A stretch of DNA of 43,937 bases from NCBI GenBank assembly GCA_001897525.1, contig MKTB01000032.1, forward strand, positions 1-43,937, given 5' to 3'. A program made the translations under genes and the position numbers. This document shows positions 2,782-24,460 of this stretch, piece by piece (within the stretch, counting starts at the first letter, position 1; every line of letters begins with the position of its first letter). The notes under the pieces were generated by a model, which saw only the letters and a program-made list of their open reading frames with translations, was not told the origin of the DNA and did no database searches. Origin of the DNA: Bacteroidetes bacterium 43-16 (lineage in GTDB: Bacteria > Bacteroidota > Bacteroidia > Chitinophagales > Chitinophagaceae).

Positions 2782-2792
2782 AAGGCACAGGA

Positions 2793-3223: not shown

Positions 3224-3244
3224 ATTACAGCAGATGCTTAGCCA

Positions 3245-3278: not shown

Positions 3279-3297
3279 GGTTGACCAGGGAGGTATT

Positions 3298-4377
3298 CTA
3301 CATTTTCCGCCCTTTTTTACTTTGTTGGTTCTGTGAGGTTTTAATGGGTTTGTTCTGCTGCTTTTCTCTTTTTAGTTGCGCTAAATTTTCTTTGATTTTT
3401 TGAGGAACATAGATGTCTTCCCATTTGGCTTGTTTCGCGGTAAAATTCATTTGTAATCCTGTTTCCCTCAACCCGTCTTTAAGATCGAATCCGTGCAGTC
3501 TGTTCCAACCTATCGGGTCCATTTTAATCTCGCTTGGTATTTCCACTACTACCAGATCTTTAGGAATTTTGGTAATGGTTTCATAGTCTATCTCACCCAA
3601 TTCTTTTTTTTGACGATTATAGGGTATGACATATTTTTCAGTTGTATCATTGAAATAGTCTTCAATTTGGGAGAACCCAATACCATTGGATAAAAAATCA
3701 TCTTTGGGCCTAAGTTTATCCATTCGCAAATCCACATAGAATGTGTGCTCCTCAATTTCAATCGTAGGTAACATCCCCTTGTTTACCCGCATGTCATAAG
3801 CTTCCTTAATCATTATATCCAAATCGCTATTTTGACGAATATAGTCAAGGGAGCAATTGTACTTACTGCTCATACCCGTCGGGTCAATATCGCCCATTCT
3901 TGGTACGGTAATAATAGCAAAGCTGTGTTTTCCGGTAATGTAGGCATCTATTCCATTTTCTGTTCTGTCTGCATCAAGGCGTTTGGAGTTTCTGTTGTAC
4001 ACAAACTCATAATGTGTACCATAGTCTTTCATCTCGTCAAAAAACAGTTTCCTTTCTTCAGGTCGGTATTTCTCGACTAATGCTAGTTGGTTTATATCGA
4101 AAAGATATTTAGTTCCGTCAATTTCGATTTCCGGCTTCCCTTCCAGCCAATCAATATAGCCCTTTGCGTCGTCAATATTATGAGGAAATGTCTTCCTACT
4201 TCCTGACATTTTGCTGTCGTCCAGTCCAACGATATACCCATATTCAGGAAAGTCCTCTTTTCGGTAGGTGATGATAAGATTGTCTGTAGACTTTTCCGGT
4301 ACATTGTTCTTGTGACTTGCTATTATATGCCCTCTATATTCTTCCAGAATATAATCGGGATCATCTTTTTTAATCAT
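3298..4377 (-). CDS. Unknown element protein with two tandem repeat domains, long paralog
   Basis: No known family recognised. The protein (359 residues) has an extra N-terminal part (about 1-80) and then two copies of a repeat of roughly 115-130 residues. Each copy opens with a strand like IEIDGTKYLFD or IEIEEHTFYVD and ends in a V/I-x-x-P segment followed by DPTGM or DPIGW and a helix. The region from about residue 81 on is paralogous to the whole of the next gene (4405-5229); shared blocks include RVNKG-LPTI, PKDD and ITKIPK-L. It ends in SKKGRKM, a C-terminus shared with two other proteins here. It is last in the traA-traD transcript, with a terminator directly after it. Soluble, no signal peptide. 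Its job is unknown; operon position suggests a transfer-linked role or a transferred effector. Confidence 0.75.
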   Translation of the reverse strand: MIKKDDPDYILEEYRGHIIASHKNNVPEKSTDNLIITYRKEDFPEYGYIVGLDDSKMSGSRKTFPHNIDDAKGYIDWLEGKPEIEIDGTKYLFDINQLALVEKYRPEERKLFFDEMKDYGTHYEFVYNRNSKRLDADRTENGIDAYITGKHSFAIITVPRMGDIDPTGMSSKYNCSLDYIRQNSDLDIMIKEAYDMRVNKGMLPTIEIEEHTFYVDLRMDKLRPKDDFLSNGIGFSQIEDYFNDTTEKYVIPYNRQKKELGEIDYETITKIPKDLVVVEIPSEIKMDPIGWNRLHGFDLKDGLRETGLQMNFTAKQAKWEDIYVPQKIKENLAQLKREKQQNKPIKTSQNQQSKKGRKM

Positions 4378-4404
4378 AATTCTATACTTAAATTATTGCA
4401 ATGA

Positions 4405-5229
4405 TTACATTCTGCGACCACGATTACGCTTATTGACTAAAGGTTTCGTTAGACCAGATTTTATCTTTTCTACTTTTCTTTGTCTCAATTCTTCCAGATT
4501 TTCTTTGATAATATCGGGCAGATCTGTTTTTTCCCAGGGTATTTTGGGGGAGCTGAAGTGCATCCTGAGGTTTGATGTTTTCAAAGCAGTTTTTGCGTCC
4601 CGATTATTCTGCCAATTCCAGCCTACAGGATCTAGCGAGAAACTGTACGGTAGTCTGACTGCTATAAGGTTTTTTGGAATTTCCGTTATCTTCAAATAAT
4701 CGAGTTCTTTTATTTCCCGTTTTTTGGGGTCGTAGGCAAATACATTCTCTCCGAGTACCTGGTCATACTGTGTGAAAGACGGTATAGGTATTCCCACGGA
4801 CTGTGGATCGTCCTTCGGAATAAGCCGATCTTTGTCGAGCACCACATAAAATAAATCTCCTGCAATATCTATGGTCGGAAGAACACCTTTATTTACTCTG
4901 AGATCAAAGGCCTGTTGGTCTACCATAATTTCAAAATCCGTTTTCCCTTTTAGCTGTTCCATTGGTACTTGATACCTTTGCGACATACCAAAGGGATCAA
5001 GTTCTACCAACTCAGGTATTTTTATCCTTACACTTTGTTCGTCTGTCCAGATGGTATGGATGTTCCTGCTATCCAGCCCATACTCAAATTCATATCCCCC
5101 AGGTACATCGGCCATATAACCAAAAGGAATAAAGTTGTTTTCATTTGCTCTTTCTTTCAAGCTTAGACTTTCTACATCAATAAAGAAATCAGTACCATGA
5201 ATATTGATGATTGGCAATTCTCTTTTCAT
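4405..5229 (-). CDS. Unknown element protein with two tandem repeat domains, short paralog
   Basis: 274 residues, a tandem paralog of the adjacent downstream gene (3298-4377). The first repeat starts near residue 6 (INIHGTDFFID), contains VELDPFGMSQRY, and is followed by AFDLRVNKGVLPTID, where the second repeat starts; that contains ITEIPKNL and SLDPVGWNW. The C-terminus is NKRNRGRRM. No signal peptide, membrane helix or catalytic motif is visible. It lies 47 bp downstream of traD and 27 bp upstream of its paralog, so the two were probably born by local duplication inside the operon. CTnDOT has no gene pair of this kind between traD and traE as far as I know. Function unknown. Confidence 0.75.
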   Translation of the reverse strand: MKRELPIINIHGTDFFIDVESLSLKERANENNFIPFGYMADVPGGYEFEYGLDSRNIHTIWTDEQSVRIKIPELVELDPFGMSQRYQVPMEQLKGKTDFEIMVDQQAFDLRVNKGVLPTIDIAGDLFYVVLDKDRLIPKDDPQSVGIPIPSFTQYDQVLGENVFAYDPKKREIKELDYLKITEIPKNLIAVRLPYSFSLDPVGWNWQNNRDAKTALKTSNLRMHFSSPKIPWEKTDLPDIIKENLEELRQRKVEKIKSGLTKPLVNKRNRGRRM

Positions 5230-5276
5230 GATCGTATGTTGTTATTTGTTCATAAACAATAAAGGGGAATTGCCTT

Positions 5277-5912
5277 TCAGACAAACTCCCCGATATCAAA
5301 ATCCTCGAGATTATTTTTCCGCATTAAGGAAGAGCGGACTTCCGTTTCAGAAGTGATTGTGCTGTCCAAAAGTTCGGCAATCTTTCGGGATGCACCCTCA
5401 ATGGAATTTTCCAGCAGGGCGAATAATTCAGTCCCTTGTAATCTTTGAACTATGGCTACCGCTGTTTCCTTTTGAGCTTGTTCCAAACTTTCTTTTTGGA
5501 GCAATGCACCTACGGAGCTTAGTTCTTCATAGGTAACCCCTTGGGCAAGACTGCTATCGCCACCGGATACTCCATACCTGTTCCATTCTTCTTCCTCTTC
5601 CTCCAAATCAGGCATATTTCTGAAAACATCGTCCAGCTCTTCCTGCGGAACCTGAATACTTACATCTTCGTTCTCGTCGTAATCAATGTCTAAATTAGCT
5701 GGGTTTATTTCCGGTTCTGCTATTTGGCTTTCATCGGCAGTGTTTGGCAGTGAAAGGCTTCTTATTGGCTTGGGTTGTCCCATAATACCGGGCAGGTTCA
5801 GGTTAACTTTTTCCTGTTTGGGCTTTTGCTCCAACCTCTTATGAATGACAATCTTATCCTGCAAAAGCAGTACAATCACGATTAGCAGGCATATCACAAT
5901 TACTATTTCCAT
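5277..5912 (-). CDS. traD: TraD-like conjugal transfer protein
   Basis: 211 residues. An N-terminal membrane anchor (about residues 3-18) is followed by a basic turn and a long polar, acidic middle (run of E near residue 100) and a helical C-terminal part. This size and layout, and the position directly after traC, match TraD of Bacteroidota conjugative transposons. No enzymatic motif is seen and the biochemical role is not established. It is not related to the F-plasmid coupling protein TraD; the coupling function here belongs to the ATPase at 13755-15755. Confidence 0.7.
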   Translation of the reverse strand: MEIVIVICLLIVIVLLLQDKIVIHKRLEQKPKQEKVNLNLPGIMGQPKPIRSLSLPNTADESQIAEPEINPANLDIDYDENEDVSIQVPQEELDDVFRNMPDLEEEEEEWNRYGVSGGDSSLAQGVTYEELSSVGALLQKESLEQAQKETAVAIVQRLQGTELFALLENSIEGASRKIAELLDSTITSETEVRSSLMRKNNLEDFDIGEFV

Positions 5913-5924
5913 AAATCGAGAATT

Positions 5925-6230
5925 TTAAAACAGCGCTTTGTATTTTTCTTTATACTCCTTTGAAATTGCATCTTCAAACGCTTCAAAGTGATGGTCAAGT
6001 ATATTGTTCAGATAGGCGAACAACGGTATTTTGTCATCGCCAATTATTTGTACAATACGAGTCAATCGTTCGTGATGCTCCGGGCTTAGGTAGATGCTCT
6101 TGTTACCTCGTGCCTGCACTGTATCCATTTGCAGAAATGTTTGCTCATAGCTTGTTTGTACTTCGTTTTTTGTGATGGCGGAAGTATTGTCTGCAACAAT
6201 AGCGTTCCTCTTTTTATTTGCATTCTTCAT
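5925..6230 (-). CDS. traC: TraC, DUF3408 protein
   Basis: 101 residues. A polar N-terminus is followed by a DUF3408 domain: SIYLSPEHHERLTRIVQ, then ILDHHFEAF and KEYKEKYK. It is a paralog of the upstream gene (6230-6640), which has the same blocks. DUF3408 proteins accompany the ParA-like TraA in these elements and may be DNA-binding partners (helix arrangement similar to ribbon-helix-helix proteins); this is inference. The ATG shares one base with the traB stop, indicating coupled translation. Confidence 0.85.
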   Translation of the reverse strand: MKNANKKRNAIVADNTSAITKNEVQTSYEQTFLQMDTVQARGNKSIYLSPEHHERLTRIVQIIGDDKIPLFAYLNNILDHHFEAFEDAISKEYKEKYKALF

Positions 6231-6640
6231 TATAAAATGGGTTTAAAGCGTTCGTTGAAATAATCTGTAATATCGTCCCCGAACTCCCTAAAGTGGTGTT
6301 CAAGGATATTGTCAATGTATGAGTAGAGTGTTGTTTTTTCTTCCCTCGTTAACTGCACAATGCGGAGCAGCCTTTCGTGATATTCAGGACGTATGTAAAC
6401 CACTTTGCCGCTTCGACCTGACGGAAAGCGGTTGACCAAAAATGTTTCGTCATAGTCCGCTTTCTTTGACGAATTGCTTCGGGATTTTTCCCTGGTTTTG
6501 GGCTTGATTTCGTTTGGTTCTTCCTGTTGCTGATTATTTTGAGGTGGAGCAACTGGCTCATCACCGCTGATGATGTTCATCAAATAATCTTCATCAACAT
6601 TTGGCTTTTTAAAATCTTCGTTTTTGTTATCTGAACTCAT
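6230..6640 (-). CDS. traB: TraB, DUF3408 protein
   Basis: 136 residues. The N-terminal 70 residues are low-complexity and polar (Q/N/E/K rich), followed by a DUF3408 domain: YIRPEYHERLLRIVQ, then YSYIDNILEHHFREFG. It is 12 bp downstream of the ParA-like traA and overlaps traC by one base. Two consecutive DUF3408 genes after a ParA gene is the standard arrangement in CTnDOT-type elements. Confidence 0.85.
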   Translation of the reverse strand: MSSDNKNEDFKKPNVDEDYLMNIISGDEPVAPPQNNQQQEEPNEIKPKTREKSRSNSSKKADYDETFLVNRFPSGRSGKVVYIRPEYHERLLRIVQLTREEKTTLYSYIDNILEHHFREFGDDITDYFNERFKPIL

Positions 6641-6652
6641 AGCTGAATGACT

Positions 6653-7420
6653 TTATAGATGTATGATTTTTAAAAATTCTTCGACAAACAAATCCATTTT
6701 GGTTGCCTTCATCAATTGAGGTTCTGCGGGTAGCAGGCTTGAACGGAACACATAATTTTCGGTATCGTCCGTTTCCTTTCGGAAACGCTTACTGTCCATT
6801 ATCCTTGTTTCCATTATGGGCAGGTTGAGTGTTTTAATGACACTTTGATATGCCTCGTACAAACCTGTTTTTTCCCTACCGTCCACTTGGTTCCAGAACA
6901 GCCACAGCTCTTGTTGCTCATTGCCCTCAATAGTTTTGGGCAGTTCAAGAAAGGCTTTGGTAAAGCCCAATGTGCTTTCCACTACTAAGCGGTCGGCTGT
7001 AATGGGTGAAAAGATAAAGTCCATTATTTTTAAGGTTGTCAATACACCTTTAGTATTGGCAGTTCCAGGCAAGTCGAAGAAAATAACATCGGGCGCAACT
7101 GCCGACTGGCTTACATATTCCGACGCTTTGTCCAAAGCATTTTCAGCCTTGCTTTTGATAATCGGATATGCCTTCTTGTTGATGGTCTGGAATTGCTTCA
7201 TTGCCGCTTTTTTGTGGTAGTCATTCTGCATCAAGGTTTTCTTATCCCGTTCACGCATATTGGTCAGGCTGTGCTGTGGAAAGTCGCAGTCCATTACTAA
7301 CACATTATATCCTAAACGGTAATGAAGCACACTTGCTAGCAAGGTGGTCATTGTTGATTTTCCCACGCCGCCTTTTTGGGTAGAAAAGCTGATTTTTAAG
7401 GTTTTCTTCTTTGTTTCCAT
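6653..7420 (-). CDS. traA: TraA, ParA-like ATPase
   Basis: 255 residues with the deviant Walker A motif KGGVGKS at residues 16-22, the switch strand VLVMDCDFPQHS near residues 40-51, and a Walker B-like DVIFFDLPG near residue 113. ParA/MinD ATPases position DNA or protein complexes; in this element class the first tra gene is of this type, probably acting with the DUF3408 partners at the transfer apparatus or in element segregation. First gene of the transcript traA-traB-traC-traD-paralogs. Its upstream region holds paired palindromes, an octamer array and a phased-repeat promoter about 370 bp away. Confidence 0.9.
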   Translation of the reverse strand: METKKKTLKISFSTQKGGVGKSTMTTLLASVLHYRLGYNVLVMDCDFPQHSLTNMRERDKKTLMQNDYHKKAAMKQFQTINKKAYPIIKSKAENALDKASEYVSQSAVAPDVIFFDLPGTANTKGVLTTLKIMDFIFSPITADRLVVESTLGFTKAFLELPKTIEGNEQQELWLFWNQVDGREKTGLYEAYQSVIKTLNLPIMETRIMDSKRFRKETDDTENYVFRSSLLPAEPQLMKATKMDLFVEEFLKIIHL

Positions 7421-7478
7421 TATTTAAAAATTTATTGTTACACGCCTTGCTTGTTTTACAGGTTTAAATATTTGTCTA

Positions 7479-7531
7479 TTGGAATATTCCTTTTTCACTG
7501 TATTCCTGCATTGGCATTTTGGAATGTTCCT
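7479..7531. promoter_or_regulatory. Two GGAATRTTCC palindromes upstream of traA
   Basis: TTGGAATATTCCT at 7479-7491 and TTGGAATGTTCCT at 7519-7531 are 13-bp near-identical palindromic sites exactly 40 bp apart, i.e. about four helical turns. A related half-site (TATTCCT) lies between them. They lie 60-110 bp upstream of the traA ATG and look like a cooperative operator, possibly for TraA/TraB autoregulation; the binder is unknown. Confidence 0.5.
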
Positions 7532-7617
7532 GTGCCGTTTTACGCTTTCCCTACAACCTTGTAAGGAGTATGATTTGGCAGGTTGTAAACCTTGCAGAAA
7601 ACAAAATGCTTTACCGC

Positions 7618-7673
7618 TTTTATGCTTTTACGTTTTTATAGTTTTATGCTTTTAAAACCTTATGCTTTTATGG
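7618..7673. repeat. Array of seven 8-bp repeats (TTTTATGC type)
   Basis: Seven consecutive octamers with no spacers: TTTTATGC, TTTTACGT, TTTTATAG, TTTTATGC, TTTTAAAA, CCTTATGC, TTTTATGG. A degenerate eighth (TTTACCGC) precedes them. The strict 8-bp period and its place between traA and oriT suggest iterons bound by an element protein, or an A-rich repeated leader of the traA mRNA (minus strand). Confidence 0.65.
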
Positions 7674-7786
7674 CAAACTGCCTGTTTGCAAACCCGATTT
7701 TCTTTCCTGTTTAAATACATTTTTTACTGCCTGCATTAAAACTGTAAGGCAAATAAAACGGATAATTTACCTGCTGTACGATATAT

Positions 7787-7819
7787 GGCAGTGTTTGGCG
7801 TTCAAAGGCAGTGTTTGTC
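7787..7819 (-). promoter_or_regulatory. Phased GCC repeat, traA operon promoter region
   Basis: On the minus strand: GACAAACACT, GCCTTTGAAC, GCCAAACACT, GCCATATATC, i.e. a GCC or GAC every 10 bp (plus-strand GGC at 7787, 7797, 7807 and GTC at 7817). A TATAT segment follows the last unit. If this is the promoter, the traA transcript has a leader of roughly 350 nt that includes the octamer array. Confidence 0.6.
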
Positions 7820-7910
7820 CGGGTATTGCATTGCAATACTCTTACATACAGTTGCTTACTTTGTAAAATGATTTTTATTAACGGATTTATGCAAAAGACT
7901 TTTGACAAAT

Positions 7911-8060
7911 CGGAGGGTAACAGCAACGGCATCGAGCCGTTTTTCCCTGTTACATTCAATCCGTCCCGCAGGGCGGATTTTTGTGTTCACCGGAACACGG
8001 CAAGTTGTGTTTTGAGGCACTCGAAACCGAGTTAGTGCCTCAAAACAACTTGCCCTTTGC
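7911..8060 (+). other. oriT: Candidate oriT
   Basis: A dense set of inverted repeats just upstream of mobA. There is a nested hairpin at 7917-7953 (outer arms GTAACAG/CTGTTAC, inner ACGGC/GCCGT), a GC-rich hairpin near 7968-7978 followed by T5, GTGTTC-ACCG-GAACAC at 7983-7998, and a long imperfect repeat with arms 8000-8021 and 8034-8053 (2-nt bulge, inner ACTCG/CGAGT). Relaxase targets typically sit next to such an imperfect inverted repeat, and CTnDOT-type oriT lies by mobA. The nick position cannot be set by eye. Confidence 0.55.
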
Positions 8061-8117
8061 AGGGGGCAGAAAACACCTTCCGAAGTCAGCGTTTTGTATG
8101 AATTTTAAAATGGATTT

Positions 8118-8558
8118 GTGATGAACGAGAACAGAAACAAAAAACAGAATAAGGGTGGACGGACACCCAAAACAGACCCAAGCATCCACCGCCACGTTTT
8201 CCGTCTTACAGACGAAGAAAACACGAAACTTTTATCGCTTTTTGATGCATCGGGAATGACCAATAAAGCAAAATTTATCATCGGCTTGTTGTTCGGTAAG
8301 GAAATGAAATCAGTAAAAATTGACAAAGGAACGGTTGATTTTTATATGCGATTGACTTCGTTTCATAGCCAATTTCGCTCCGTTGGTGTGAACTATAACC
8401 AGATTGTAAAGCTGCTGTATAAGCATTTTACCGAGAAAAAAGCGGCTGCATTCCTGTACAAACTGGAAAAACAGACGGTTGAAATGGCGATGCTATGCCA
8501 AAAAATCATTCAACTTACCGAAGAATTTGAAGCAAAACACCTGAAAAAACAAGCTTAG
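8118..8558 (+). CDS. mobA: MobA, relaxosome accessory DNA-binding protein
   Basis: 146 residues. The basic N-terminus (NKKQNKGGRTPK) leads into a ribbon-helix-helix-like segment (RHVFRLTDEENTKLLSLFDASG) and a MobC-type helical domain with VGVNYNQIVKLL, a pattern close to the G-x-N-x-NQ-I signature of plasmid mobilisation accessory proteins. It should bind oriT and recruit or orient the relaxase. Start: the second codon is also ATG, so the true start may be 3 bp later. The relaxase gene begins 3 bp after its stop, so the two form one transcript. Confidence 0.85.
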   Translation: MMNENRNKKQNKGGRTPKTDPSIHRHVFRLTDEENTKLLSLFDASGMTNKAKFIIGLLFGKEMKSVKIDKGTVDFYMRLTSFHSQFRSVGVNYNQIVKLLYKHFTEKKAAAFLYKLEKQTVEMAMLCQKIIQLTEEFEAKHLKKQA

Positions 8559-9886: not shown

Positions 9887-11128
9887 TTAAAAATAGGTTG
9901 AGATACCAAAACTAAAACCACCGAGCAATACAGGCGGATTCGCAAAGAAGTCACGGCTACGCTGGTGCCTGTAGTTCAATCGCAATACGGTTTCAGAATT
10001 TGGACGGAAGCTCAATCCTCCCACCACACTCCACAGATCTTCACCAATATTATCGCCAGTTTCCCTAAGCTTCCCCACATTCCAATCCACATATTCCAAA
10101 CGGCAGGCAAGGCTTAGGGATGCTTTTGGCCATCCCAATATTTTTCGTTGTAAAACAGGTTGGACGATATCGACAAATCCGCCTTGTTGCCGCTCACCAT
10201 ATTGTTGAGTATAACTTTCCGGAACCATTAGTTTAATCCATGCCCATTCACCGGTAATAAAAGTCTTTATGTGCGGAATCTTCGTGTTAAAATCAACTGC
10301 ATATACACTCAATGTCCGTTTTTCGTCGATAACGTTGCCATTGTCAACGTACCTGTTGTAAATACCACCCATGTAAGAAATGCCAATTTCACCTATCCTG
10401 TTATTTCTTGCTGCCAGTTTTCCTGAAAAGAGTGGTTGCCCGGTGAGACTTAACTCGAAACGGTCGGTGTTGGATTTTGTCGCAGCCAGGTACGTTTTGC
10501 CCTGTTCATTGTTAATGATGGATTGATCAAATCCTCCCGAAACATAAGCTTCATAACCGAACATCCAGTCGTCATCGTAATGTTTACCATACAATCCGAA
10601 TCCGGCGTTGCTCCAGGTGGAAGGCAAAAGCTGTGTCGCTGAAATTGGACGGTCTGTAAACTCCCACTTAGGCCCGTCATGGTTTTGATTGAATGCACCG
10701 ATCGGACTAAGGATAATCCCCCCACGCAAGTTCAGCAAAGGATGAAACTCCATGTCCAATGCCGCAAATTCGATGTTGATCTCCTTGGTACCATTCTCAA
10801 ATTCAAGCTCGCTCATGAACTTGATGCGCTTGCTGATCGTGGATGCCATAAAAATGGTGAACCTCCTGAATTGGAACTGGTTTCCTTGGCTTACCCCGTC
10901 CTGGCCAATATGTTGCCAGTTGGCCTCCATATATCCACCCACAGATATGGGCAGTTTGCCTGCTGAAAGCATTGGTCTATTATATATCGCATCCATATTC
11001 ATTGTATTGTTCAGTGAATCCCTGTTTTCCGCTCTCCTGAACAGGGTAGAATCAATCTGAGCATGAACCAGCGCCGGTACAAACAGACTAACACTGATTA
11101 AAAGTGTGACGTAGTATTTTTTATGCAT
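9887..11128 (-). CDS. Porin-type outer-membrane beta-barrel (OprO/OprP-like)
   Basis: 413 residues with a signal peptide ending in LVHAQ (about residues 1-24). The mature part has alternating hydrophobic/aromatic strands and a final aromatic (FGISTYF) typical of an outer-membrane barrel. Segments such as VGGYMEANW, FQFRRFTIFMAS and LRGGIILSPIGAFNQNHDGP resemble the phosphate-selective porin O/P family in Bacteroidota. It is the last gene of a three-gene unit; its ATG overlaps the Rieske gene by 8 bp. The substrate is unknown; co-expression with redox lipoproteins and a metal regulator suggests uptake linked to metal or respiratory metabolism (inference). Confidence 0.75.
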   Translation of the reverse strand: MHKKYYVTLLISVSLFVPALVHAQIDSTLFRRAENRDSLNNTMNMDAIYNRPMLSAGKLPISVGGYMEANWQHIGQDGVSQGNQFQFRRFTIFMASTISKRIKFMSELEFENGTKEINIEFAALDMEFHPLLNLRGGIILSPIGAFNQNHDGPKWEFTDRPISATQLLPSTWSNAGFGLYGKHYDDDWMFGYEAYVSGGFDQSIINNEQGKTYLAATKSNTDRFELSLTGQPLFSGKLAARNNRIGEIGISYMGGIYNRYVDNGNVIDEKRTLSVYAVDFNTKIPHIKTFITGEWAWIKLMVPESYTQQYGERQQGGFVDIVQPVLQRKILGWPKASLSLACRLEYVDWNVGKLRETGDNIGEDLWSVVGGLSFRPNSETVLRLNYRHQRSRDFFANPPVLLGGFSFGISTYF

Positions 11129-11567
11129 GTTTAAGTGATATGTTGAGTTGGTCGTTAACGATATTTACAGAAAAAGAGCGCAAGCTCTCCCGGGCTGGCC
11201 CATTTTGTACCTGCCCTTTGTTGTTGAACTCACTGCCATGTGCAGGACATTGCAGTATATCGCCGAAAGCCTGTAATTCAGCGCCCTGATGAGTGCATTG
11301 CATAAGCACCGCACTGTATTCGCTTTCTGAAAAACGGAATACATATATGGGGTACCTCAGTTGGCCGTGTTCCACAATAATGTATTTTCTATAGATTTCC
11401 TTTCCGCCCTTACCAGAAAGGAAACTGCTCAACGGAACGGAAAGATCGGAGCCCATAATCTTACCTGATATGGACTTCCCCGTAGCACATCCTTCCAACA
11501 GTACAGGTGCCAGACCTGTACCGAGGCAGGCAAAGCCACATTGTTTGATAAATTGCTTTCTGTCCAT
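11121..11567 (-). CDS. Rieske [2Fe-2S] protein
   Basis: 148 residues. An N-terminal export segment with a possible lipobox (LLEGC, C27) is followed by a Rieske fold. The cluster ligands are visible: C91-T-H93 in CTHQGAEL and C107-P-A-H110 in CPAHGSEF, which is the C-x-H...C-x-x-H pattern. It probably moves electrons in the periplasm or at the outer membrane, perhaps to or from the dihaem protein encoded immediately upstream (1-bp gap). A full twin-arginine motif is not seen (R-K only), so the export route is uncertain. Confidence 0.88.
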   Translation of the reverse strand: MDRKQFIKQCGFACLGTGLAPVLLEGCATGKSISGKIMGSDLSVPLSSFLSGKGGKEIYRKYIIVEHGQLRYPIYVFRFSESEYSAVLMQCTHQGAELQAFGDILQCPAHGSEFNNKGQVQNGPARESLRSFSVNIVNDQLNISLKHA

Positions 11568-11568
11568 A

Positions 11569-12768
11569 TTATAATGATTTGAGGAATTTGATAATCGCGG
11601 CTTTATCTGTTGGAGACAGGTTGTTGTACTGCTGACGGGAAGCTACCGCTTCTCCTCCGTGCAGTTCTATTGCCTGTTCAATGCTGGTTGCCATGCCATC
11701 GTGCATCAGGAAATACTTTCCGCCCTGTGAATTAGGTGAAAGACCCAGCCCCCATAATGGCGGTGTCCTCCATTCATTGGTCTTTGCAGTACCTTCGGTG
11801 TATCCATCATCCAGGCCCGAACCCATATCATGTAGCAACAGATCGGTGTATGGATAAAAATCCTTGAATGCAAGTGCCGAAATCGGGGCATTGCCTGTAG
11901 TTAGTTTGGGTTTGTGGCAACTGCTGCAATTCACTTGCGTAAAAAGGGCTTTCCCCTTTATTACATCCGCATCGGTCTGATTACGGGGGATGGGTGCCTT
12001 CAAGGTTTGTAAATAAAAACCTAGGTTGTTCACTCGCTGGGTGGAAATTTCTGGATCTACTTTCTGCCCGGAATACACATCTATGGGATGGTAGAGCGTA
12101 GATATCCCCATATCCTGTGCGAGTGCGTCTACCGTCTGCTGAAGAAGATCATAAACACTAGCCTTCTTACCGAACCGCCCGATATACCTGCCATTGTGAG
12201 AAACGCTTCCGCTACGGGGATTGATATAGGATGGGATATTTATCCAGTTTACCCTGCCGGAGATGCCGTCCCCATCCAGATCATTTGGATCAGCCATTTG
12301 GAGCAGTACATCATCAGGAACAAATTCAAGAAGCCCCAGTCCTGTAACTGCGGGGGGCGTAAACCTTGAAAAGGCCGCTCCCGGAGGTAAAACTTCCGGT
12401 TGATAGCCTGGGATAGCTCTGTTCTGTAACTGTGGACCGCCCAGATGCAAAAACTGGTTACCCGTTTCGTCTACCTGGCCAAAACGTGTCAATGTGCTGA
12501 ACGGATTTCCCTTACCGTCTCCTGCATGGCAGCTCACGCAACTGTTGGAAACAAACAAAGGACCTAGCCCCTTTTCAACGGTAAATACTTCATCATTAAA
12601 GGTTCTGTCGCCATCATTGAAGCGTTGCATTTCCGAAAGACTAAGCCCCTCAATCGGACCGTCCAGCAAGCTGTCTTCCAAGGGCAATCCGGGCTCAAAC
12701 TTTTCGCAGGCCTGTATCCCGACTATCAGGGCTATAATTCCCCCGATGATAATTTGTGATTTTCTCAT
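11569..12768 (-). CDS. Dihaem lipoprotein, DUF1111/cytochrome c peroxidase-like
   Basis: 399 residues. The signal segment has a lipobox ending at C21. Two c-type haem sites are visible: CVSCH at residues 77-81 and CSSCH near residue 283. Features of the di-haem oxidoreductase (DUF1111) family include PPAVTGLGLLEFVPDD, the calcium-like DPNDLDGDGISGR loop, and RTPPLWGLG near the C-terminus. Proteins of this family are often found with iron-regulated or imelysin genes. It is first in the unit dihaem-Rieske-porin, divergent from a DtxR-type regulator with palindromes between them, so metal-responsive control is likely. Confidence 0.85.
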   Translation of the reverse strand: MRKSQIIIGGIIALIVGIQACEKFEPGLPLEDSLLDGPIEGLSLSEMQRFNDGDRTFNDEVFTVEKGLGPLFVSNSCVSCHAGDGKGNPFSTLTRFGQVDETGNQFLHLGGPQLQNRAIPGYQPEVLPPGAAFSRFTPPAVTGLGLLEFVPDDVLLQMADPNDLDGDGISGRVNWINIPSYINPRSGSVSHNGRYIGRFGKKASVYDLLQQTVDALAQDMGISTLYHPIDVYSGQKVDPEISTQRVNNLGFYLQTLKAPIPRNQTDADVIKGKALFTQVNCSSCHKPKLTTGNAPISALAFKDFYPYTDLLLHDMGSGLDDGYTEGTAKTNEWRTPPLWGLGLSPNSQGGKYFLMHDGMATSIEQAIELHGGEAVASRQQYNNLSPTDKAAIIKFLKSL

Positions 12769-12853
12769 TTGCTACTTTTTTTATTCATTACTTTTCAATT
12801 TGGCTCATTAAATAACAGGAATACTCTATAAGATAATACTAAAAAATATTCAC

Positions 12854-12880
12854 AGACTAATTTAAAATATAAATTAGTCT
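12854..12880. promoter_or_regulatory. 27-bp perfect palindrome in the divergent promoter region
   Basis: Arms AGACTAATTTA (12854-12864) and TAAATTAGTCT (12870-12880) are exact inverted repeats around 5 bp. It lies 86 bp upstream of the dihaem gene and 85 bp upstream of the regulator gene. The TTAG/CTAA content fits DtxR/MntR-type operators. Confidence 0.6.
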
Positions 12881-12931
12881 TACAAAAATAATAAGCTAGA
12901 CTATACTAACAAATAAAGTTTGTTTAAAATG

Positions 12932-12945
12932 TTAGAGCGGTCTAA
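12932..12945. promoter_or_regulatory. Palindrome TTAGAGCGGTCTAA before the DtxR-type gene
   Basis: A 14-bp site of the form TTAG-n6-CTAA, 19 bp before the regulator ATG. DtxR/MntR-family boxes commonly have this TTAG...CTAA shape. It shares AGTCTA/TAGA elements with the larger palindrome at 12854-12880. Probably autoregulatory. Confidence 0.5.
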
Positions 12946-12964
12946 TAATTTGTAGATTTGTTAT

Positions 12965-13633
12965 ATGATTTCGGAAACTGAAGAAAACTACTTGAAAGCT
13001 TTATTTGTCTTATCCATTGACAAAGGTGAAGTGAATATATCGGAGCTGAGTAAGCAATTGGAAGTTAAGATACCTACAGCTAATAGCATGATGAAACGCC
13101 TTGCCGAGAAAGAGCTGGTCATTTATGAAAGCTACAAGCCAGTCAAGCTTTCTGCGAAAGGAAAAAAGGAAGCCGCCCTGATAATCAGGAAGCACCGGCT
13201 TACCGAAATGTTCCTAGTGGAAAAGATGGGCTTTGGATGGGAAGAGGTTCATCTTATTGCCGAACAGATCGAACATATCCGGTCAACGGCATTTTTCGAG
13301 AAAATGGATGAATTACTTGGGCATCCGAATGTTGACCCTCACGGATCACCGATACCGGACATAAACGGAAAGATCACAACCGAACACTATCTGAGGTTAA
13401 GCGACCATAAGAAAGGAGATAAGGTCGAATTTATGGCAGTTTCCCATTCTTCCGAAGATTTGCTGAAATTCCTGAACAGCAAGGAACTTGTACTGGGTAC
13501 TGTTTTGTTTATTGAGTCCATAGAACCATTCGATGGAACAATGTCGGTTTCCTATGATAAAAGACAAAATGAGATGCTGAGCAGCAAAGTCTGCGACAAA
13601 CTTCTGGTGAGAGGAGCTGAAGGTAATTCCTAA
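12965..13633 (+). CDS. DtxR/MntR-family metal-dependent regulator
   Basis: 222 residues in three parts. An N-terminal winged helix (about 1-65) contains ISELSKQLEVKIPTANSMMKRL. The dimerisation/metal-binding domain (about 70-140) contains HRLTEMFLVEKMGFGWEEVH, EQIEHI and GHPNVDPHGSPIP. A C-terminal FeoA/SH3-like part follows. It senses Fe(II) or Mn(II) and binds palindromic operators. It is transcribed away from the dihaem-Rieske-porin unit, with two palindromes between. Metal preference cannot be told by eye. It lies 40 bp before a phased repeat and the mobC gene. Confidence 0.9.
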   Translation: MISETEENYLKALFVLSIDKGEVNISELSKQLEVKIPTANSMMKRLAEKELVIYESYKPVKLSAKGKKEAALIIRKHRLTEMFLVEKMGFGWEEVHLIAEQIEHIRSTAFFEKMDELLGHPNVDPHGSPIPDINGKITTEHYLRLSDHKKGDKVEFMAVSHSSEDLLKFLNSKELVLGTVLFIESIEPFDGTMSVSYDKRQNEMLSSKVCDKLLVRGAEGNS

Positions 13634-13660: not shown

Positions 13661-13700
13661 GCCAAATACTGCCACTCGATGCCACTGGCTGCCACATTCC
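13661..13700 (+). promoter_or_regulatory. Phased GCC repeat, mobC promoter region
   Basis: Best example of the motif: GCCAAATACT, GCCACTCGAT, GCCACTGGCT, GCCACATTCC, four units with GCC at exactly 13661, 13671, 13681 and 13691. They are followed by TATAG, a possible -7 element, and the mobC ATG lies 54 bp downstream. It points into mobC. Confidence 0.7.
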
Positions 13701-13754
13701 TATAGCCACCCCTTATAGCGTTTAAATTCACGCCCGAACATTAAAACTAAAATA

Positions 13755-15755
13755 ATGCAAGGGGAAGATGATTTAAGAGGGTTAGTCAAGATAATGGCTT
13801 TTATGCGGGCAGTGAGTATTCTTTTGGTACTGATGCACCTTTATTGGTTCTGCTACGGTTTCTTTTTAGAGCGTGGCTGGACGTTGGAAGTAATCAACAA
13901 AATATTAGGGAATTTTGACAGAACTGCTGGTTTGTTTTCACATACCCTTTATACCAAAGCATTTGCTCTGGTGTTGTTAGCTTTGAGTTGTTTAGGTACA
14001 AAGGGCGTAAAGAATGAAAAAATAACATGGTCAAAAATTTACGCGGCTTTAGGCGTTGGTTTTGTGCTGTTTTTCCTGAACACACCATTGTTAATACTAT
14101 CTCCCGCAACAGGTACATTTCTGTATATCCTTACTATTTCGTTAGGTTATATCGCCTTGCTTATGGCTGGGGTATGGATGAGCCGCTTGCTCCGCACCAA
14201 TCTTATGGACGATGTTTTCAATAATGAAAACGAAAGCTTTCAACAGGAAACCAAGCTGATGGAAAACGAGTATTCCGTCAATCTGCCCACCAAGTTTTAC
14301 TACAAAGGCAAATGGAACAACGGTTGGATAAACATTGTAAATCCTTTCAGGGCATCTATTGTACTCGGTACTCCAGGTTCCGGAAAATCATATGCTATCG
14401 TAAATAATTACATCAAGCAACAGATAGAAAAGGGCTTTAGTATGTATATATACGATTTCAAATTCGACGACCTTTCTACCATCGCCTACAATCACTTACT
14501 GAAACACCGGGACAAGTACAAAGTGCAGCCCAAATTCTACGTCATCAATTTCGACGACCCTCGCAGAAGCCATCGGTGCAACCCACTCAATCCCGACTTT
14601 ATGACGGACATTTCAGATGCTTACGAAGCGGCCTACACGATAATGCTGAACCTAAACAGGTCGTGGATACAGAAGCAGGGCGATTTTTTCGTGGAAAGCC
14701 CAATTATTCTTTTGGCTGCGATAATCTGGTATTTGAAAATTTATGAGAATGGAAAGTACTGTACATTCCCACACGCCATCGAATTACTGAATAAAAAGTA
14801 TTCGGATGTATTCACGATTCTTACCTCGTACCCCGATTTGGAAAACTACCTATCGCCATTTATGGACGCGTGGCAAGGTGGTGCACAAGATCAACTGCAA
14901 GGTCAGATTGCATCGGCAAAAATTCCTTTATCGAGAATGATCAGTCCGCAACTCTATTGGGTGATGACAGGTGATGATTTTACGCTGGACATTAATAACC
15001 CCAAAGAACCAAAAATTTTATGCGTTGGCAATAATCCTGACCGTCAAAATATTTACTCTGCCGCATTAGGTTTGTACAATTCACGGATCGTCAAACTGAT
15101 TAACAAAAAAGGACAGCTAAAGAGTTCTGTTATCATAGATGAGCTGCCTACGATTTATTTCAGAGGACTGGACAACCTGATCGCAACTGCCAGATCAAAC
15201 AAAGTAGCAGTATGTTTAGGATTTCAAGATTTTTCGCAATTAACAAGGGACTACGGCGACAAGGAAAGTAAGGTAATTCAGAATACCGTTGGTAATGTAT
15301 TCAGTGGTCAGGTTGTAGGAGAGACCGCAAAGAGCCTTTCGGAACGCTTTGGAAAAGTATTACAGAAACGTCAGAGTATGACCATCAATAGAAATGATAA
15401 ATCAACATCTATCTCCACACAATTAGATAGCCTGATACCTGCATCCAAAATATCAACCTTGACACAAGGTATGTTTGTGGGTTCTGTATCAGACAACTTT
15501 GATGAACGTATCGAGCAAAAGATTTTTCATGCAGAAATTGTAGTGGACAATGAAAGGGTAGCCGCTGAAACCAAAGCTTACCAGCAGATACCACAAATCC
15601 TTTCTTTTGTAAATGAGCAGGGAAAAGATCAAATGAAAGAGGAAATTGAAAGCAATTACAAACGTATAAAGTCAGACATCCTGCATATTGTTGTGAGTGA
15701 AATAGAACGGATAAAGAATGATCCTGATTTGCAGCATTTGGTACAGGAGGGATAA
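13755..15755 (+). CDS. mobC: MobC, VirD4/TraG-type coupling ATPase
   Basis: 666 residues. This is the inner-membrane ATPase that brings the relaxase-DNA complex to the secretion channel. Four hydrophobic helices lie in the first 150 residues. Walker A GTPGSGKS is at residues 205-212, and Walker B-like SSVIIDELPT is near residue 458, followed by FQDFSQL and the TraG/VirD4 C-terminal region. It lacks the relaxase neighbour usual in this family because the dihaem-DtxR island lies between. A phased repeat with its own promoter sits directly upstream, so it can be expressed independently of mobA-mobB. Confidence 0.92.
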   Translation: MQGEDDLRGLVKIMAFMRAVSILLVLMHLYWFCYGFFLERGWTLEVINKILGNFDRTAGLFSHTLYTKAFALVLLALSCLGTKGVKNEKITWSKIYAALGVGFVLFFLNTPLLILSPATGTFLYILTISLGYIALLMAGVWMSRLLRTNLMDDVFNNENESFQQETKLMENEYSVNLPTKFYYKGKWNNGWINIVNPFRASIVLGTPGSGKSYAIVNNYIKQQIEKGFSMYIYDFKFDDLSTIAYNHLLKHRDKYKVQPKFYVINFDDPRRSHRCNPLNPDFMTDISDAYEAAYTIMLNLNRSWIQKQGDFFVESPIILLAAIIWYLKIYENGKYCTFPHAIELLNKKYSDVFTILTSYPDLENYLSPFMDAWQGGAQDQLQGQIASAKIPLSRMISPQLYWVMTGDDFTLDINNPKEPKILCVGNNPDRQNIYSAALGLYNSRIVKLINKKGQLKSSVIIDELPTIYFRGLDNLIATARSNKVAVCLGFQDFSQLTRDYGDKESKVIQNTVGNVFSGQVVGETAKSLSERFGKVLQKRQSMTINRNDKSTSISTQLDSLIPASKISTLTQGMFVGSVSDNFDERIEQKIFHAEIVVDNERVAAETKAYQQIPQILSFVNEQGKDQMKEEIESNYKRIKSDILHIVVSEIERIKNDPDLQHLVQEG

Positions 15756-16271: not shown

Positions 16272-19200
16272 TTATAGTACACCTTTTGGCAAATGGACAC
16301 CTTTTGTTCTTAAAATATCCTCTGAAACAGATGAAGCTTCCTTTTGCTTTTCCTCTTGCGCTTCCACGGGTTCTTCCTTAGGCTCAGGCATGATAGATAG
16401 CTGGATTTTTCTTTCCACAGCAGCCAGTTCCGTTTTAAGTTCGCCTAATCTGTTTTCCTTGGACCATGTACCATCTACTACTTCCTGAAGAATAGGCAAA
16501 TCCTTTTTTATTTCGGCAATTTTCTCCTGTTCCTGCTTTACATAGCCTGGTAGTTTTTCCAGTGCCCTTAAAAAATTCATGGATGCAGTTTCCGGTTCTT
16601 TGGCCATTATGCCGTTGTTGTAAGTATATTTGATATTGCCCTCGCCCTGTACCAAAAATCGGTTTACCCGAATGTCCACGCCCTCCTTTTCAGACATTTC
16701 AGTTTTGACCAATAGTGTAAATCCGTACAACGTACCGATTTCTTCATACTGCCCTCCGGTGCGGGCATTGTCTGCAAGTTGATTAAGCTTGGTGCCGATT
16801 TGCTTCATATCGGCATTCGGCGGTAGTCCTTCCAGTAAAACAGGGTTTGCAACAGTGCCATCCTCACGTTTTTGTAAGCGCCCTTGTAAATTATCCCAAT
16901 CAAGGCTCATTCGATGCAGTCGGGATTGCGTACTTTCCAGCATTTCCGTATAGTCCTGCAGTTTATATTTCGCACTGAATTTGGAACGGTTAAATGCCTG
17001 TTTTTCACTTTCCAGTCCGGCAATCTGTTTTTCCAGTTTGGCTTTATCCAGCAGGTCTGTATTTCCCGACAGGATAGCCACATATTCAGAAAAGTTCATT
17101 CCTGATTTTTCGTCCATACTGCCTTCATCAATAGTTCGCTTGCCGAGATTGTTGGTCTTTAACTGATCGATAAAAAGCTGCTTGTTGTACAGCAGGTTGA
17201 ATTTGTAGCTATCCAAAGACTTTTCGACAGCGTAGATAATCACATCTACCTGGTTATCGGCAAAGAATTTAGCTATTTCATTGCCTTTACGGATGGCTCG
17301 CCCATCACGTTGTGCAAGATCGCTCGGTCGCCACGGTGTATCGAGATGATGTATGGCAACGGCTCTTTTCTGGGCATTAACGCCCGTACCCAACATACTT
17401 GTAGAACCGAACAACACACGGATCTTTCCCTCATTCATTCCTTTAATCAGTTCTTTGCGCTGCTTATCACTTTTAGCTTCCTGTATAAACCGGACTTCAT
17501 GTGCAGGTATGCCATGATCCTCTACCAGCTTGCGTTTGATTTCCGAATACACGTTCCATTCGCCAGGCTTGTAAGTACCGAGATCAGAGAAAACGAACTG
17601 TGTTCCTTTTTGGGTATTATACTGGTTATAATATTTAGCGATGTTTGCCGCACAGTGCGATGCCTTATTATCGGGATGGTCGTCATACCTACCGCTTACC
17701 ATCCGCATATCGAGCGACATCTTGCGGGCATAATCCGTAGCTATAAGCATCTTTGCTTTTTCTTCGCTTTGTGATAGAGGTGCTCTCCCAAGAAGTTCCG
17801 CATTACCTGTTTTAGCAAAGTCCATCAGTTTTTTGATAAAGACTTCCTGATCTGGTGTAGGCGGTATGTTATACAGCACTTCGTTCTTAACCGGGCGATC
17901 GATGCCAATATCTTTTGCTGTGCGGTAGTCCGTGATTTCTGAGTAGAATTGGGCTAATTCCGGCACTTTGATAAAATAGCGAAAACGCTCTTTCGCCACA
18001 ATGTTATTAGCCACCGAAAACTCATAATCGGTAGTTTTCCGAGCATAGATAGCCGCCCATGCATCAAAAGAATGGATACCCTGTTTTTCCATTGCCCTTG
18101 GCCGCAGGTATTTGAACAGCAAGTATAGTTCGGTCAGGGAGTTGCTAATGGTAGTACCCGAAAGAAAGGTTGCGCCCATGTCCGCATTGGTACGGTCCTG
18201 AATGGTACGGATGGCGAAGAGCAGGTTCATGGCTTTTAGACTGCCGTCTATGTTGCCCAATCCTGCTACCCGTGTGTGACGGGTATTGAACATCAGGTTT
18301 TTAAATTGGTGGCTCTCATCCACAAACAAGTGGTCTATACCCATCATTTTAAAATCTACGACGTCATCTTTTCGGTTTTCAATATCGTGTTCAAGGGTTT
18401 TAAGTTTCACCTCCAGGTTTTCTTTCCGTTTGATTACGCCTGCTAGCATTCCCCTGGTCACTTCCTTTCCTTGGGATTGCAAGGCATCTAAATTGCGCTC
18501 TACGCTGTCCAGCTCTATTTCAAGGATTTCCTTTTGTATTTCGGGCGATTGCGGTATCATCCCGAATTGGTCGTGTGTCAATATCACACAGTCCCAATCA
18601 TTGTTTTTAATGTCCCCAAAAATCCTCAGGCGCTTTTGGGGCGTAAAATCTTCTTTGCCCGGAAACAGGATCTTGGCGTGTGGATAAGCGGTACGATAGG
18701 CTTCGGCAATTTCGTGAACGTTGCTTTTCAGTCCAATAATCATTGGCTTGTGGGCAAGTCCCAAACGTTTCATTTCCTGTGCGGCAGTGCACATCACCAA
18801 TGTCTTGCCTGCACCTACTTCGTGGTCGCAGATAGCACCGTTGTTCAGCTTTATCATCCAAACCGTATCCTTTTGGCTTGAATACAGGTCTTCAATACCC
18901 AAAGCCTTACGATCTAAGCCTGGAAAGTCCTGATGGTTGCCATCGTAGTTCGGCCGAACGAAGCAGTTGAACGTGTCGTTGTATTGATCGGTCAGCCTGT
19001 TTTTAAATTGGTCGTTTTGCGCATGTAGCCAATCGGTAAAGGCGGTGCGTATTTCGTCTATCTTCGTGTTAGCCATTTGTATGGCTTCCATATCTCTCAC
19101 TTTTACTTCCTGATCGCCAACCCTCATTTTCTTGGTAATGTCTGGCGTGGTATTGACCAAAGCATGTTTGAGCAGGGCTATCCCGTCAAACGTCCGGCTT

Positions 19201-21689
19201 TCGGACTTAACGGCATATTTTTCCCAAATGTGCATATTGCCCTGGTGACACTTTACGGAAAAATCGTCGGAGCTTTCCGAGTAATAAACGTTAACATCTG
19301 CATCGAACAGGTGGGAAGCAAAACGGGCATAAATACCTGTGGGTATCCAGCGTTCGCCAAGGTTAAAATCCAGTTCTTCAAATTCGATCCGCCTTGGTCG
19401 GGCCTCTTCCAGAACGTTGAGGCTTGTTTTGGCTTCGGTATCCTCCGGATTATTTTCGATATAGCTGCGTACCTCTTCAGCTTTCTCTACAACGTTCCCC
19501 GCAGTCCAGCGTTCGGCTATTTCGTATCCCTTTTGCAAAGGATTGTAATAAATGCGGCCATGTAAGGCTTCTTTCAGGGCGTCAGCGTTCATACCGCTGA
19601 TTTCGGACATATACGCCAAATCCACACTTCCATATTTATTGAGCGTGGCTGCTAAGGCTTCTTCAGGATTGTCAATTGCTATGGTTACTGTCGAAAAGCT
19701 TACAGGTCGGCTAAAGATATCCGCTTTGTGTACAACGCCACCGATTACACGTTCCAGGTAAGGCATTTCCTTACCCGAACTATCTGTTTTAATGAGCTTA
19801 ATATTATCTGCATTGTTAAGGTTGCCATACCTTTTGACAAAAGCATCATAAAGGCGGTTCAGGTTTTCCCTTTCTTCCTTTTGTTCGACCTGATACTGTG
19901 CCTCGTTAGTGTAAAGGTGCTGGTACACATCACGGACTTCGATATATGCTTCAGCTCTTGCTCTTTGCAAGCTGGGTAGTTGCAAGGGATGAAATATGGC
20001 GTTTCCTTCTGCGGTATCCACTTCTTGCAAGTGACCGACCCAACCTTTATCCATGGCAAGGCAATCATTACGGTGGAACGATTGCAGTTCGCCACTATAC
20101 GGGGCAACTTCGGGAATAGCTGCTTTAACAGGCTGGCTGCTTCCGTTTACACCTGAAAACAAATCTCCGATAGTTTCCTGCTTTTTGCCATCGTTAGATG
20201 GCGTTCCATTAACTGCTTTATTGGTAATGGAAGTTGTGTATGGTTGCTGCATTGCACTACTGAAAAGGTCAGGCTGGCGACCTATTGCACCTCTTCTTTT
20301 GTTGGTGCTTTGCCTTTTGATTGATGTGGTCCGTTTGGGCGGAGCAAGAACTGCTACCGGTTCGTCCGTAGTGTCAAAAAGGTCGAAAATGCTCAGTTGT
20401 TTAAGTTCCGGTGGACTTTCACGATGAGCTACCTGTGCAGACAGAGATGGTATTCCCTTTTGGATGATTACGGGTTCAATAACCGGCGGTGTAACCTTTG
20501 GTTCAATAGGAATTTGTATCACCGGCTCTTCGTTCCGTTCGCCTAGGTACAAATTCAAGTTAAGGTGCTTTCCAAAATCTTCATTAAGCATCTGTTTGAG
20601 GTCCTTGGCAATTCCGCTGGTGCCATCTCTATGGAAATAGATGAGCGCTGGCTGTCCATAAGGGTCTGTATCCAGTTTGCGGTCTGTATGTACAATCCGT
20701 GTATTGTCTGAAAACAGTGCATTGCCAGGCGTATTGTATTCGGTCTGCTTACTTTGGCAAAATAGTTCTTCCCTTTCGTTAAGGCCTTGTTTAGCCGTAT
20801 TCTTTTGCAGGACAATCAGGTCACTGCCAACCTCTGTCCCGGCATAATCAGTAAACAGATTATTAGGTAATCGAACAACTGAAACCAGGTTGTTTTGTTG
20901 CATCAAAGCCCTGCGTATCGGTTCGTTCTTCGGGCTGTTCAGAATACCCTGTGAAGTGATGTAAGCTAACAAACCGCCCTCACGGAGCATATCAGCGCCT
21001 TTCAGAAAAAAGTAATTGTGTATGCTTCGGGCTGCCTGTACCTTCGCACTGTCCTTGCTTCTGGAATAGGTAAGGTCGAATACCGAGGTGTCGCCAAAAG
21101 GAATATTGCTGGCTATAACATCATAGTTGTTTTGTTCCCTTTCGGAAATTTCCTCAAAGCCTCCTATACGAATATTGCTTTCGGGATATAGCTGCTTTAA
21201 AATCTTGCCGGTGAGCAGATCCTTTTCGTAAGCAGTAACATCTGCTTTTGTATTCGCTGAAAAAGATTGTATAAATGAACCGATACCCGCCGAAGGTTCG
21301 AGGAATTTGCGGATGTGCAGGCCGCTGTCTCTAAAAGCGGCAGAAATTGCATCTATTACCTCAGGAGGTGTATAAAAAGCCGTGAGCACAGAACTTTTCA
21401 TACTATCCACATACCTGCGGTATTGCTTGTCGTCTTCGGAATTTTCTTTGAGCAGCTGGAGAAGTTCCTGCGTAACAGGGAAAAGCTCGTGTTCGGTCTT
21501 TCTCCAATTATTAATGTCTAATGCGCTGGCTATAGGGTTCAGTACGAATTTAAGACCGCCAAATCCGCTGTATTGCATCATTGGCAGTCTTTCCCCTACG
21601 GAGGCTTGCCGTTTCTCCTTTTCCAGTTTAAAAGCAATTCGCAGGGCATAGATATTCTGTTGGAGATGTAGCTTTTTACTGAAGCCCAT
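16272..21689 (-). CDS. Giant N6-adenine methylase / SNF2-like helicase fusion
   Basis: 1805 residues. An N-terminal methyltransferase has SAM motif [10 protein letters not shown] (near 130-140) and catalytic NIPFGD (near 195), variant of NPPF. After a P/Q-rich linker (about 390-530) comes a superfamily-2 helicase: [11 protein letters not shown] (near 955-965), DESH box (near 1123), [17 protein letters not shown] and arginine-finger [11 protein letters not shown] (near 1460-1470), then a coiled-coil tail. Such methylase-helicase giants occur in Bacteroidota conjugative elements and resemble the layout of phage P1 DarB, an antirestriction protein. The likely role is protection or processing of the element DNA on entry (inference). 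It overlaps the upstream DUF1896 gene by 14 bp. Confidence 0.9.
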
Positions 21690-22113
21690 TTTCCTCTATC
21701 CATATTGCGATGGTCCCTGTTATTTCGGTATAGAGCAGCTCGTACTCCGGGCCATAAGCGAAATCATCGGTTAGCTCATATCTTGCAAAAACAGCCTCGC
21801 AAACAGGAAGCATTTTCAGGGCGAAGGGCCGCAGCTCTTCATCGGCCATGATGGTATCAAATTCATTGCATACGATCTGAAAAACCGTATCGAATTTGGA
21901 GAAGTATAAGCCTTCAAAAAGGATATAATTGGCAATTTCATCGCATTGCGCTATAGCGTTTCCCGAACGGAAAGCTCCGTCATACGCGTTGGCAGCCCAC
22001 GATGATCGTTGCGTTATAAACTTTTCATCGTTTGCCTTTTCGGGAAAGCTACTGTTTAGTAATTCCTTCAGTCGTATCCTGAAATAAGAAAGGTCTTTTT
22101 GCTGTGTATCCAT
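21676..22113 (-). CDS. DUF1896 protein
   Basis: 145 residues; DUF1896 family, recognised from the sequence and from its regular place before the methylase-helicase in Bacteroidota elements. Mostly helical and acidic, with [28 protein letters not shown] and [12 protein letters not shown]. No catalytic motif and no membrane helix. It overlaps the large gene by 14 bp, which suggests co-translation and probably a partner role. A phased repeat lies 70-105 bp upstream. Confidence 0.85.
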
Positions 22114-22184
22114 ACAATTATTTGATTTTAGAATGCTACTTGAAGTCTAAAATTAAAGCAGGAAGACCCCGGCATCTAAGAGGT

Positions 22185-22217
22185 GGTAGTGTTTGGCGTT
22201 TAGAGGCAGGATTTGAC
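22185..22217 (-). promoter_or_regulatory. Phased GCC repeat, DUF1896/methylase operon
   Basis: Minus-strand units: GTCAAATCCT, GCCTCTAAAC, GCCAAACACT, ACCACCTCTT, each starting 10 bp apart (plus-strand GGT 22185, GGC 22195, GGC 22205, GAC 22215). TTAGATG follows. It points into the DUF1896 gene. Confidence 0.6.
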
Positions 22218-24439: not shown

Positions 24440-24460
24440 CCTACAAAAATATTAATCTAA

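Follow-up and report, generated by a model that had tools for sequence, protein, structure and literature searches.

Blocks of GCC-like triplets, repeated at intervals of one helical turn, stand in front of several transfer operons in a contig of Bacteroidetes bacterium 43-16, and raise the question of whether they form one regulatory system and, if so, which protein reads them. The stretch analysed, here called the window (43,937 nucleotides), is contig C32 of an assembly of 39 contigs and 4.73 Mb and bears part of a CTnDOT-like integrative conjugative element (ICE); its Pfam matches (DUF4134, TraG, a MobC-type coupling protein, RteC and topB/DUF3945) are the gene set of CTnDOT-like Bacteroidota ICEs. 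Pfam yields domains only; names such as traA, mobC, Xis2c and Xis2d are those of an initial annotation and of CTnDOT usage. The genes concerned are:

62-7420, tra genes
2793-3098, traE (DUF4134), with an array upstream
5277-5912, tra gene of 211 aa, with an array within it
6653-7420, traA
8118-9847, mobA/mobB
13755-15755, mobC (T4SS coupling protein)
16272-22113, methylase-like gene (1805 aa) and DUF1896 (21676-22113)
37256-40810, topB and DUF3945 (39341-40810)
40895-41203, minus strand, Xis2d, an HTH_17 protein (Pfam), top candidate for binding the arrays
41230-41583, minus strand, Xis2c, an HTH_17 protein (Pfam), a less likely binder
41835-42710, minus strand, RteC (Pfam PF09357), putative upstream regulator

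No integrase was found among the window genes scanned; a near-identical element of Pedobacter antarcticus has an integrase and a 17-bp end repeat. The window holds no Rfam family, and a sigma-70 scan of 7400-8200 gave nothing informative. Cargo (a di-haem oxidoreductase and an iron-dependent repressor) lies between mobB and mobC at 9887-13633, mobC having its own array promoter, and defence-like cargo is found at 22301-25219 and 35427-37137 (a Swt1-like HEPN protein together with a GmrSD-type protein, and the pair AbiEi/AbiEii). The 11 RteC matches spread over several contigs of the genome point to many resident ICEs or remnants.

The initial annotation had listed six blocks with 10-bp steps. 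All six are present and their coordinates hold, and five of them are arrays of four GCC-like triplets at exact 10-bp steps, located before traE, traA, mobC, DUF1896 and DUF3945/topB; the block at xis2c has one 13-bp core only. Absent from the list is an array at 5723-5758; a further one precedes a second HTH pair in relatives. The features are:

3188-3223, minus strand, array of four units upstream of traE
3154-3161, minus strand, traE -7 box GACATTTG, offset 62-69
5723-5758, minus strand, intragenic array in the 211-aa tra gene, 28.1 bits with the full matrix
5690-5697, minus strand, box TAATTTAG of the intragenic array, offset 61-68
7784-7819, minus strand, traA array, intergenic between mob and tra, with ~365 bp separating it from the traA start codon
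7750-7757, minus strand, traA -7 box TTTATTTG, offset 62-69
13661-13696, plus strand, array upstream of mobC
13723-13730, plus strand, mobC -7 box TAAATTCA, offset 62-69
22182-22217, minus strand, array upstream of DUF1896 and the 1805-aa methylase-like gene
22148-22155, minus strand, DUF1896 -7 box TAATTTTA, offset 62-69
40871-40906, minus strand, array upstream of DUF3945 and topB, overlapping the xis2d 3' end
40837-40844, minus strand, DUF3945 -7 box TAAATTCG, offset 62-69
41626-41638, minus strand, single 13-bp core GACAAACACTGCC in the xis2c promoter, at ~-33 to -21
41610-41617, minus strand, xis2c -7 box GAATTTTG
41639-41664, minus strand, separate conserved block GCCAAACCAATGGGTAAGGCTTGGCA, candidate RteC operator

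Counting the first G as 0 and reading in the direction of transcription, GNC-type triplets stand at 0, 10, 20 and 30, the exception being the TCC at 20 of traE. The successive triplets are GCC-GCC-TCC-GCC for traE, GAC-GCC-GCC-GCC for traA, four times GCC for mobC, GTC-GCC-GCC-ACC for DUF1896 and GCC-GAC-GCC-GCC for DUF3945.

The 43.9-kb window has six copies of the exact core GNCAAAYACTGCC, whereas 200 Markov-1 sequences averaged 0.015 and never had more than 1. The whole 4.73-Mb genome contains ten copies (and one of the reversed pattern), six of them in the window, which rules out a host-wide motif; the other four lie upstream of another ICE's traA (C2), upstream of a second HTH_17 pair (C4), in another xis2c promoter (C34) and within a homologue of the 211-aa gene (C18). 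Across 147 genomes, that of the window included, GCCAAACACTGCC gave 40 matches and its reversal 7. When the weight matrix was made from four of the operon classes, the held-out fifth operon of the window scored 19.3-42.1 bits, counting array columns alone; the top score among 20 shuffles was 10.8-16.2 bits in this test and 15.2 bits with the full matrix. In the loci around Xis2c (80 named loci and 20 further stretches), exact cores numbered 101 against 0 reversed. A chance origin of the arrays is ruled out by the Markov-1 counts, the reversed-pattern counts and the held-out matrix test.

A TTTAG/TATA-like segment within about 10 bp of each block, to which the initial annotation had drawn attention, can be read in the window, yet the conserved feature is a -7 box starting 29 bp after the last GCC of the array. 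In all five promoter classes, the best match to TAnnTTTG, described as the consensus of Bacteroidota primary sigma-factor promoters (PMC9723704, PMC7366714), starts at offset 62 from the first G, so that this promoter feature has a fixed place throughout. The -7 box played no part in building the array alignments. Among 254 distinct arrays from all fetched loci, a pool whose class labels derive from crude text patterns and which, like the whole-element scans and the comparison of DUF3945 regions with Xis2d divergence below, includes elements that served to build the matrix, the TAnnTTTG match peaks at 62 (4.43 of 6), the next best offset being 61 (2.96). The 11 arrays of the second HTH pair also peak at 62. 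In a flavobacterial transcriptome the box maps to -12 to -5 (PMC9723704), and if the same holds here the arrays span approximately -74 to -39, which would place them at about the position just upstream of the -33 region. The missing -33 TTG carries little weight, because Flavobacterium johnsoniae promoters have no general -33 motif (PMC7366714). Distances to the start codon fall within narrow ranges for DUF3945 (61-65 bp), DUF1896 (57-72 bp) and xis2c (41-43 bp); for traA, by contrast, the distance is about 340-430 bp.

Arrays recur at the orthologous promoters of dozens of related ICEs. With an array called at 21 or more of 35 matches to the class seed, they were present in 81 of 81 upstream regions of DUF3945 and in 58 of 59 of DUF1896, the exception (L044) giving no match. 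For the remaining operons 30 loci per gene were fetched from 39 genomes (L051 not among them), and arrays preceded mobC in 30/30, traE in 30/30 and traA in 28/29 of the loci read, one traA locus giving no match; these counts lean to close homologues because more matches were listed than were fetched. Together, the orthologous arrays, the fixed -7 offset and the held-out matrix support the earlier proposal of helically phased operators belonging to an element-wide regulon.

The 98-kb Pedobacter antarcticus element (L042, contig C24 of genome G100), which is bounded by the 17-bp repeat with the integrase inside one end, has seven arrays of 30.4-47.1 bits: one lies within the 211-aa gene, and the others precede DUF3945, DUF1896, mobC, traA, traE and the second HTH pair. 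Apart from these, no non-overlapping site exceeds 8.6 bits, and the matrix scan found no array in the ~21 kb flanking the element. The same seven arrays are found in the elements of G102, G105 and G026 (> 100 kb read in each), with one extra weaker site in G102. The second HTH_17 gene pair itself follows the tra operon and is preceded by an array (L121:10100-10787, with relatives in L134, L140 and L235). In G105 (L245:3255-3842), an MT-A70-like methyltransferase gene beside DUF1896 has an array of its own that scores 43.1 bits, which looks like recruitment of a cargo gene into the regulon.

The array unit varies with the element. A CTnDOT-like element of Bacteroides ovatus (Xis2d 52%, Xis2c 41%) has GACAAATGAG-type arrays upstream of traA and in the downstream gene, together with a mixed GAC/GCC array upstream of DUF3945, and two further relatives have GAC arrays upstream of traA and in the downstream gene. 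In these Bacteroidales GAC-type arrays the box is at offset 61. Where Xis2d is < 80% identical and the DUF3945 upstream region is readable, DUF3945 arrays score at most 12.0 bits and are weak or absent, a point against the regulon reading, while most such elements keep their traA arrays. When viral contigs were scanned for the GAC unit, 12 matched; the four-unit array was not seen in the sequences inspected.

In other elements, those of Bacteroidales among them, the intragenic array is found in this same gene and is often followed by TAATTTTG or TATATTTG at offset 61; it likely marks an internal promoter. Codon-level constraint at the array is mildly raised, with weak support: synonymous identity is 0.826 there versus 0.651, and the segment ranks 41st of 200 in the gene.

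The xis2c promoter is organized differently. The GCC of its core starts 11 bp before the -7 box, compared with 32 in the arrays, and the core therefore lies approximately two turns closer to the box, covering ~-33 to -21, so that the view of it as a short form of the arrays has to be abandoned. Its position suggests self-repression. The exact single core is present in 43 of 84 xis2c promoters; those of L062, L083 and L122 gave no match, the core being missing in L062 and L083. Behind rteC and upstream of the xis promoter lies a conserved block of the CCAATTGG-N-CTTGGC type (also written CCAATGGG-CTTGGC), still recognizable in 6 of 10 elements that lack Xis2c and have lost the array core. The obvious candidate to bind this block is RteC.

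We think it probable, from comparison of sequences, that the array blocks serve as operators for a single transfer regulon spanning the element and that its activator is most likely Xis2d, bound head-to-tail on the array in the manner of BldC and of excisionases. RteC would start the xis operon from its own operator. Xis2d protomers would then bind head-to-tail to the array units, which lie a helical turn from one another on the same side of the helix, the promoter-proximal protomer helping RNA polymerase, and the operons led by traA, traE, mobC, DUF1896 and DUF3945/topB would be switched on. The array within the 211-aa tra gene would serve an internal promoter, and the second HTH pair of relatives would also belong to the regulon. 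Finally, Xis2d would limit its own synthesis from the xis2c promoter, where it would occupy the single core at ~-33 to -21.

The initial annotation had named both HTH proteins as candidate binders, and one of them remains likely. Xis2c, alone or in mixed filaments with Xis2d, might bind the arrays and activate, as it too is an HTH_17 protein and its own promoter often carries the single core. However, the Xis2c ORF is absent between rteC and xis2d in 10 of 15 further elements, and eight of the nine of these whose tra/mob stretches were fetched keep the traA array (17.8-36.1 bits), which makes Xis2d the likelier binder. The same eight have the intragenic array in seven cases, the traE array in five and the mobC array in three at the scan threshold of 12 bits, so that the weak arrays among them rest on position, since this threshold is below the best shuffle of the full matrix (15.2 bits); the ninth element, in G112, has weak matches only. 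The C18 element of the window's own genome is a similar case, without Xis2c next to xis2d and with arrays at mobC, traE and traA. Several of the genomes lacking Xis2c at this position carry other ICEs, from which the protein could be supplied; even so, we regard activation through Xis2c as improbable. RteC might bind the arrays directly, since in CTnDOT it governs excision and transfer genes (PMC1976400) and since these elements contain rteC. Near the xis promoter, however, stands a separate conserved block that persists in elements where the core is gone. Stretches from other ICE families that have homologues of rteC or mobC/tra but give no Xis2d match mostly lack arrays: of 24 (L257, L260, L264, L266 and L268-L287, each covering part of an element), 23 have no array > 17 bits, the exception being L283 with one array beside a mobA homologue. 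Both observations make RteC less likely, and we give direct binding by it very little credence.

Another protein encoded by the element might fill this role, for example the second HTH_17 pair behind the tra operon, which is MerR-like and whose own promoter bears an array; that array fits a downstream member of the regulon equally well, and we rate such a binder as quite unlikely. The sign of regulation might also be the reverse, with the arrays as repression operators that keep the transfer genes off until the protein is removed. Excisionase-type proteins can act in this way, Apl repressing pR and pL (PMC7498355) and RdfS lowering its own promoter (PMC11963761). But the arrays end near -39 with a fixed gap to the -7 box in five classes, a place more usual for an activator, and we consider repression unlikely.

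Returning to Xis2d as the activator, three related elements with an altered recognition helix (TYRCLQRYRT, with wing IKYFT or IKFFT, in place of the usual SNRSLQRYRS and LPYYT) had no GCC arrays at the promoters read, by matrix or by eye (G102b, G129 and G135a; stretches L240, L241, L288-L291, L293-L296 and L298-L300). Because the three are related to each other, the loss may be a single event. The observations on elements lacking Xis2c, lacking Xis2d, with the altered helix or with the GAC dialect are correlations. An observation that counts against Xis2d is that the ends of the P. antarcticus element have no array (best core with two mismatches), and an excisionase should act at the ends. 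The predicted Xis2d model (mean pLDDT 81) has a long N-terminal helix; its first PDB match in a fold search was 6AMA, a BldC-DNA complex (probability 0.99 but E 0.043), with RacA, RdfS and TorI further down the list. No match in that search reached E <= 0.001, and a search of the PDB by sequence gave no relative (best E 0.37).

BldC of Streptomyces protects four tracts one helical turn apart, with four protomers on direct repeats at the smeA-ssfA promoter (PMC5859096), and the candidate operators described here are likewise direct repeats one helical turn apart; as a fold match of Xis2d, BldC is weak. Unlike Xis2d, BldC is a chromosomal developmental regulator, and Xis2d, whose binding here is putative, has the long N-terminal helix. 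Sites of the phage 186 excisionase Apl are also direct repeats one turn apart (PMC7498355), and RdfS of ICEMlSym R7A has a dual regulatory role, activating PintS and attenuating its own promoter (PMC11963761). Apl and RdfS differ in binding att DNA, where the P. antarcticus element ends have no array, and in the larger number of promoters and the single fixed spacing found here.

In CTnDOT itself, RteB activates rteC, and RteC controls the excision operon and transfer genes (PMC1976400; PMC5729914), while its excisionases are described as moonlighting transcription factors (PMC9956884), an arrangement like that proposed here. The gene set is the same, and the CTnDOT-like B. ovatus element has phased arrays. 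Hopp et al. reportedly described, in 2015, a dyad-symmetric Xis2d site located only between mob and tra of CTnDOT, which counts against the array reading and contrasts with direct-repeat arrays at five to seven promoters in a fixed geometry. Excisionases doubling as transfer activators are an already known kind of regulator, of which the Xis2d array regulon would be a variant. We recognized no description of this array in a literature search whose reach did not extend to the primary CTnDOT papers, which may contain one.

Taken as a whole, the fuller reading is about as likely to be right as wrong. In it Xis2d, a protein of the excisionase family, would act as master activator of conjugation for a large group of Bacteroidota ICEs. 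It would assemble head-to-tail as a filament of four protomers at ~-74 to -39 of about seven promoters (one intragenic), limit itself through the single core over -33 in the promoter of its own operon, and read an operator dialect (GCC, GAC, possibly TAGG) that changes with the recognition helix across the promoters of an element. The shared ladder of repeats looks like one switch for a small DNA-binding protein across many related bacteria. For a widespread group of ICEs, with members here from flavobacteria, sphingobacteria, Chitinophagaceae and Bacteroides, it defines by sequence the operator and the promoter geometry of the transfer genes. It lets membership of the transfer regulon be predicted, cargo genes included, and allows direct tests of how excisionase-activators switch on conjugation, and the dialects offer a natural test of whether ICEs sharing a cell switch each other on.

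In the altered-helix elements, some mob, DUF1896 and DUF3945 genes without GCC arrays have direct repeats of the form TAGG-N6-TAGG near their starts, with a raw count of 12 matches in three stretches; as a suggestion only, these repeats could be a third operator dialect. An RteC-like stretch, with 62.8% identity over 66% of the query, is present in plasmids NZ_MZ465529.1 and NZ_CP025402.1, whose records are named Escherichia coli.
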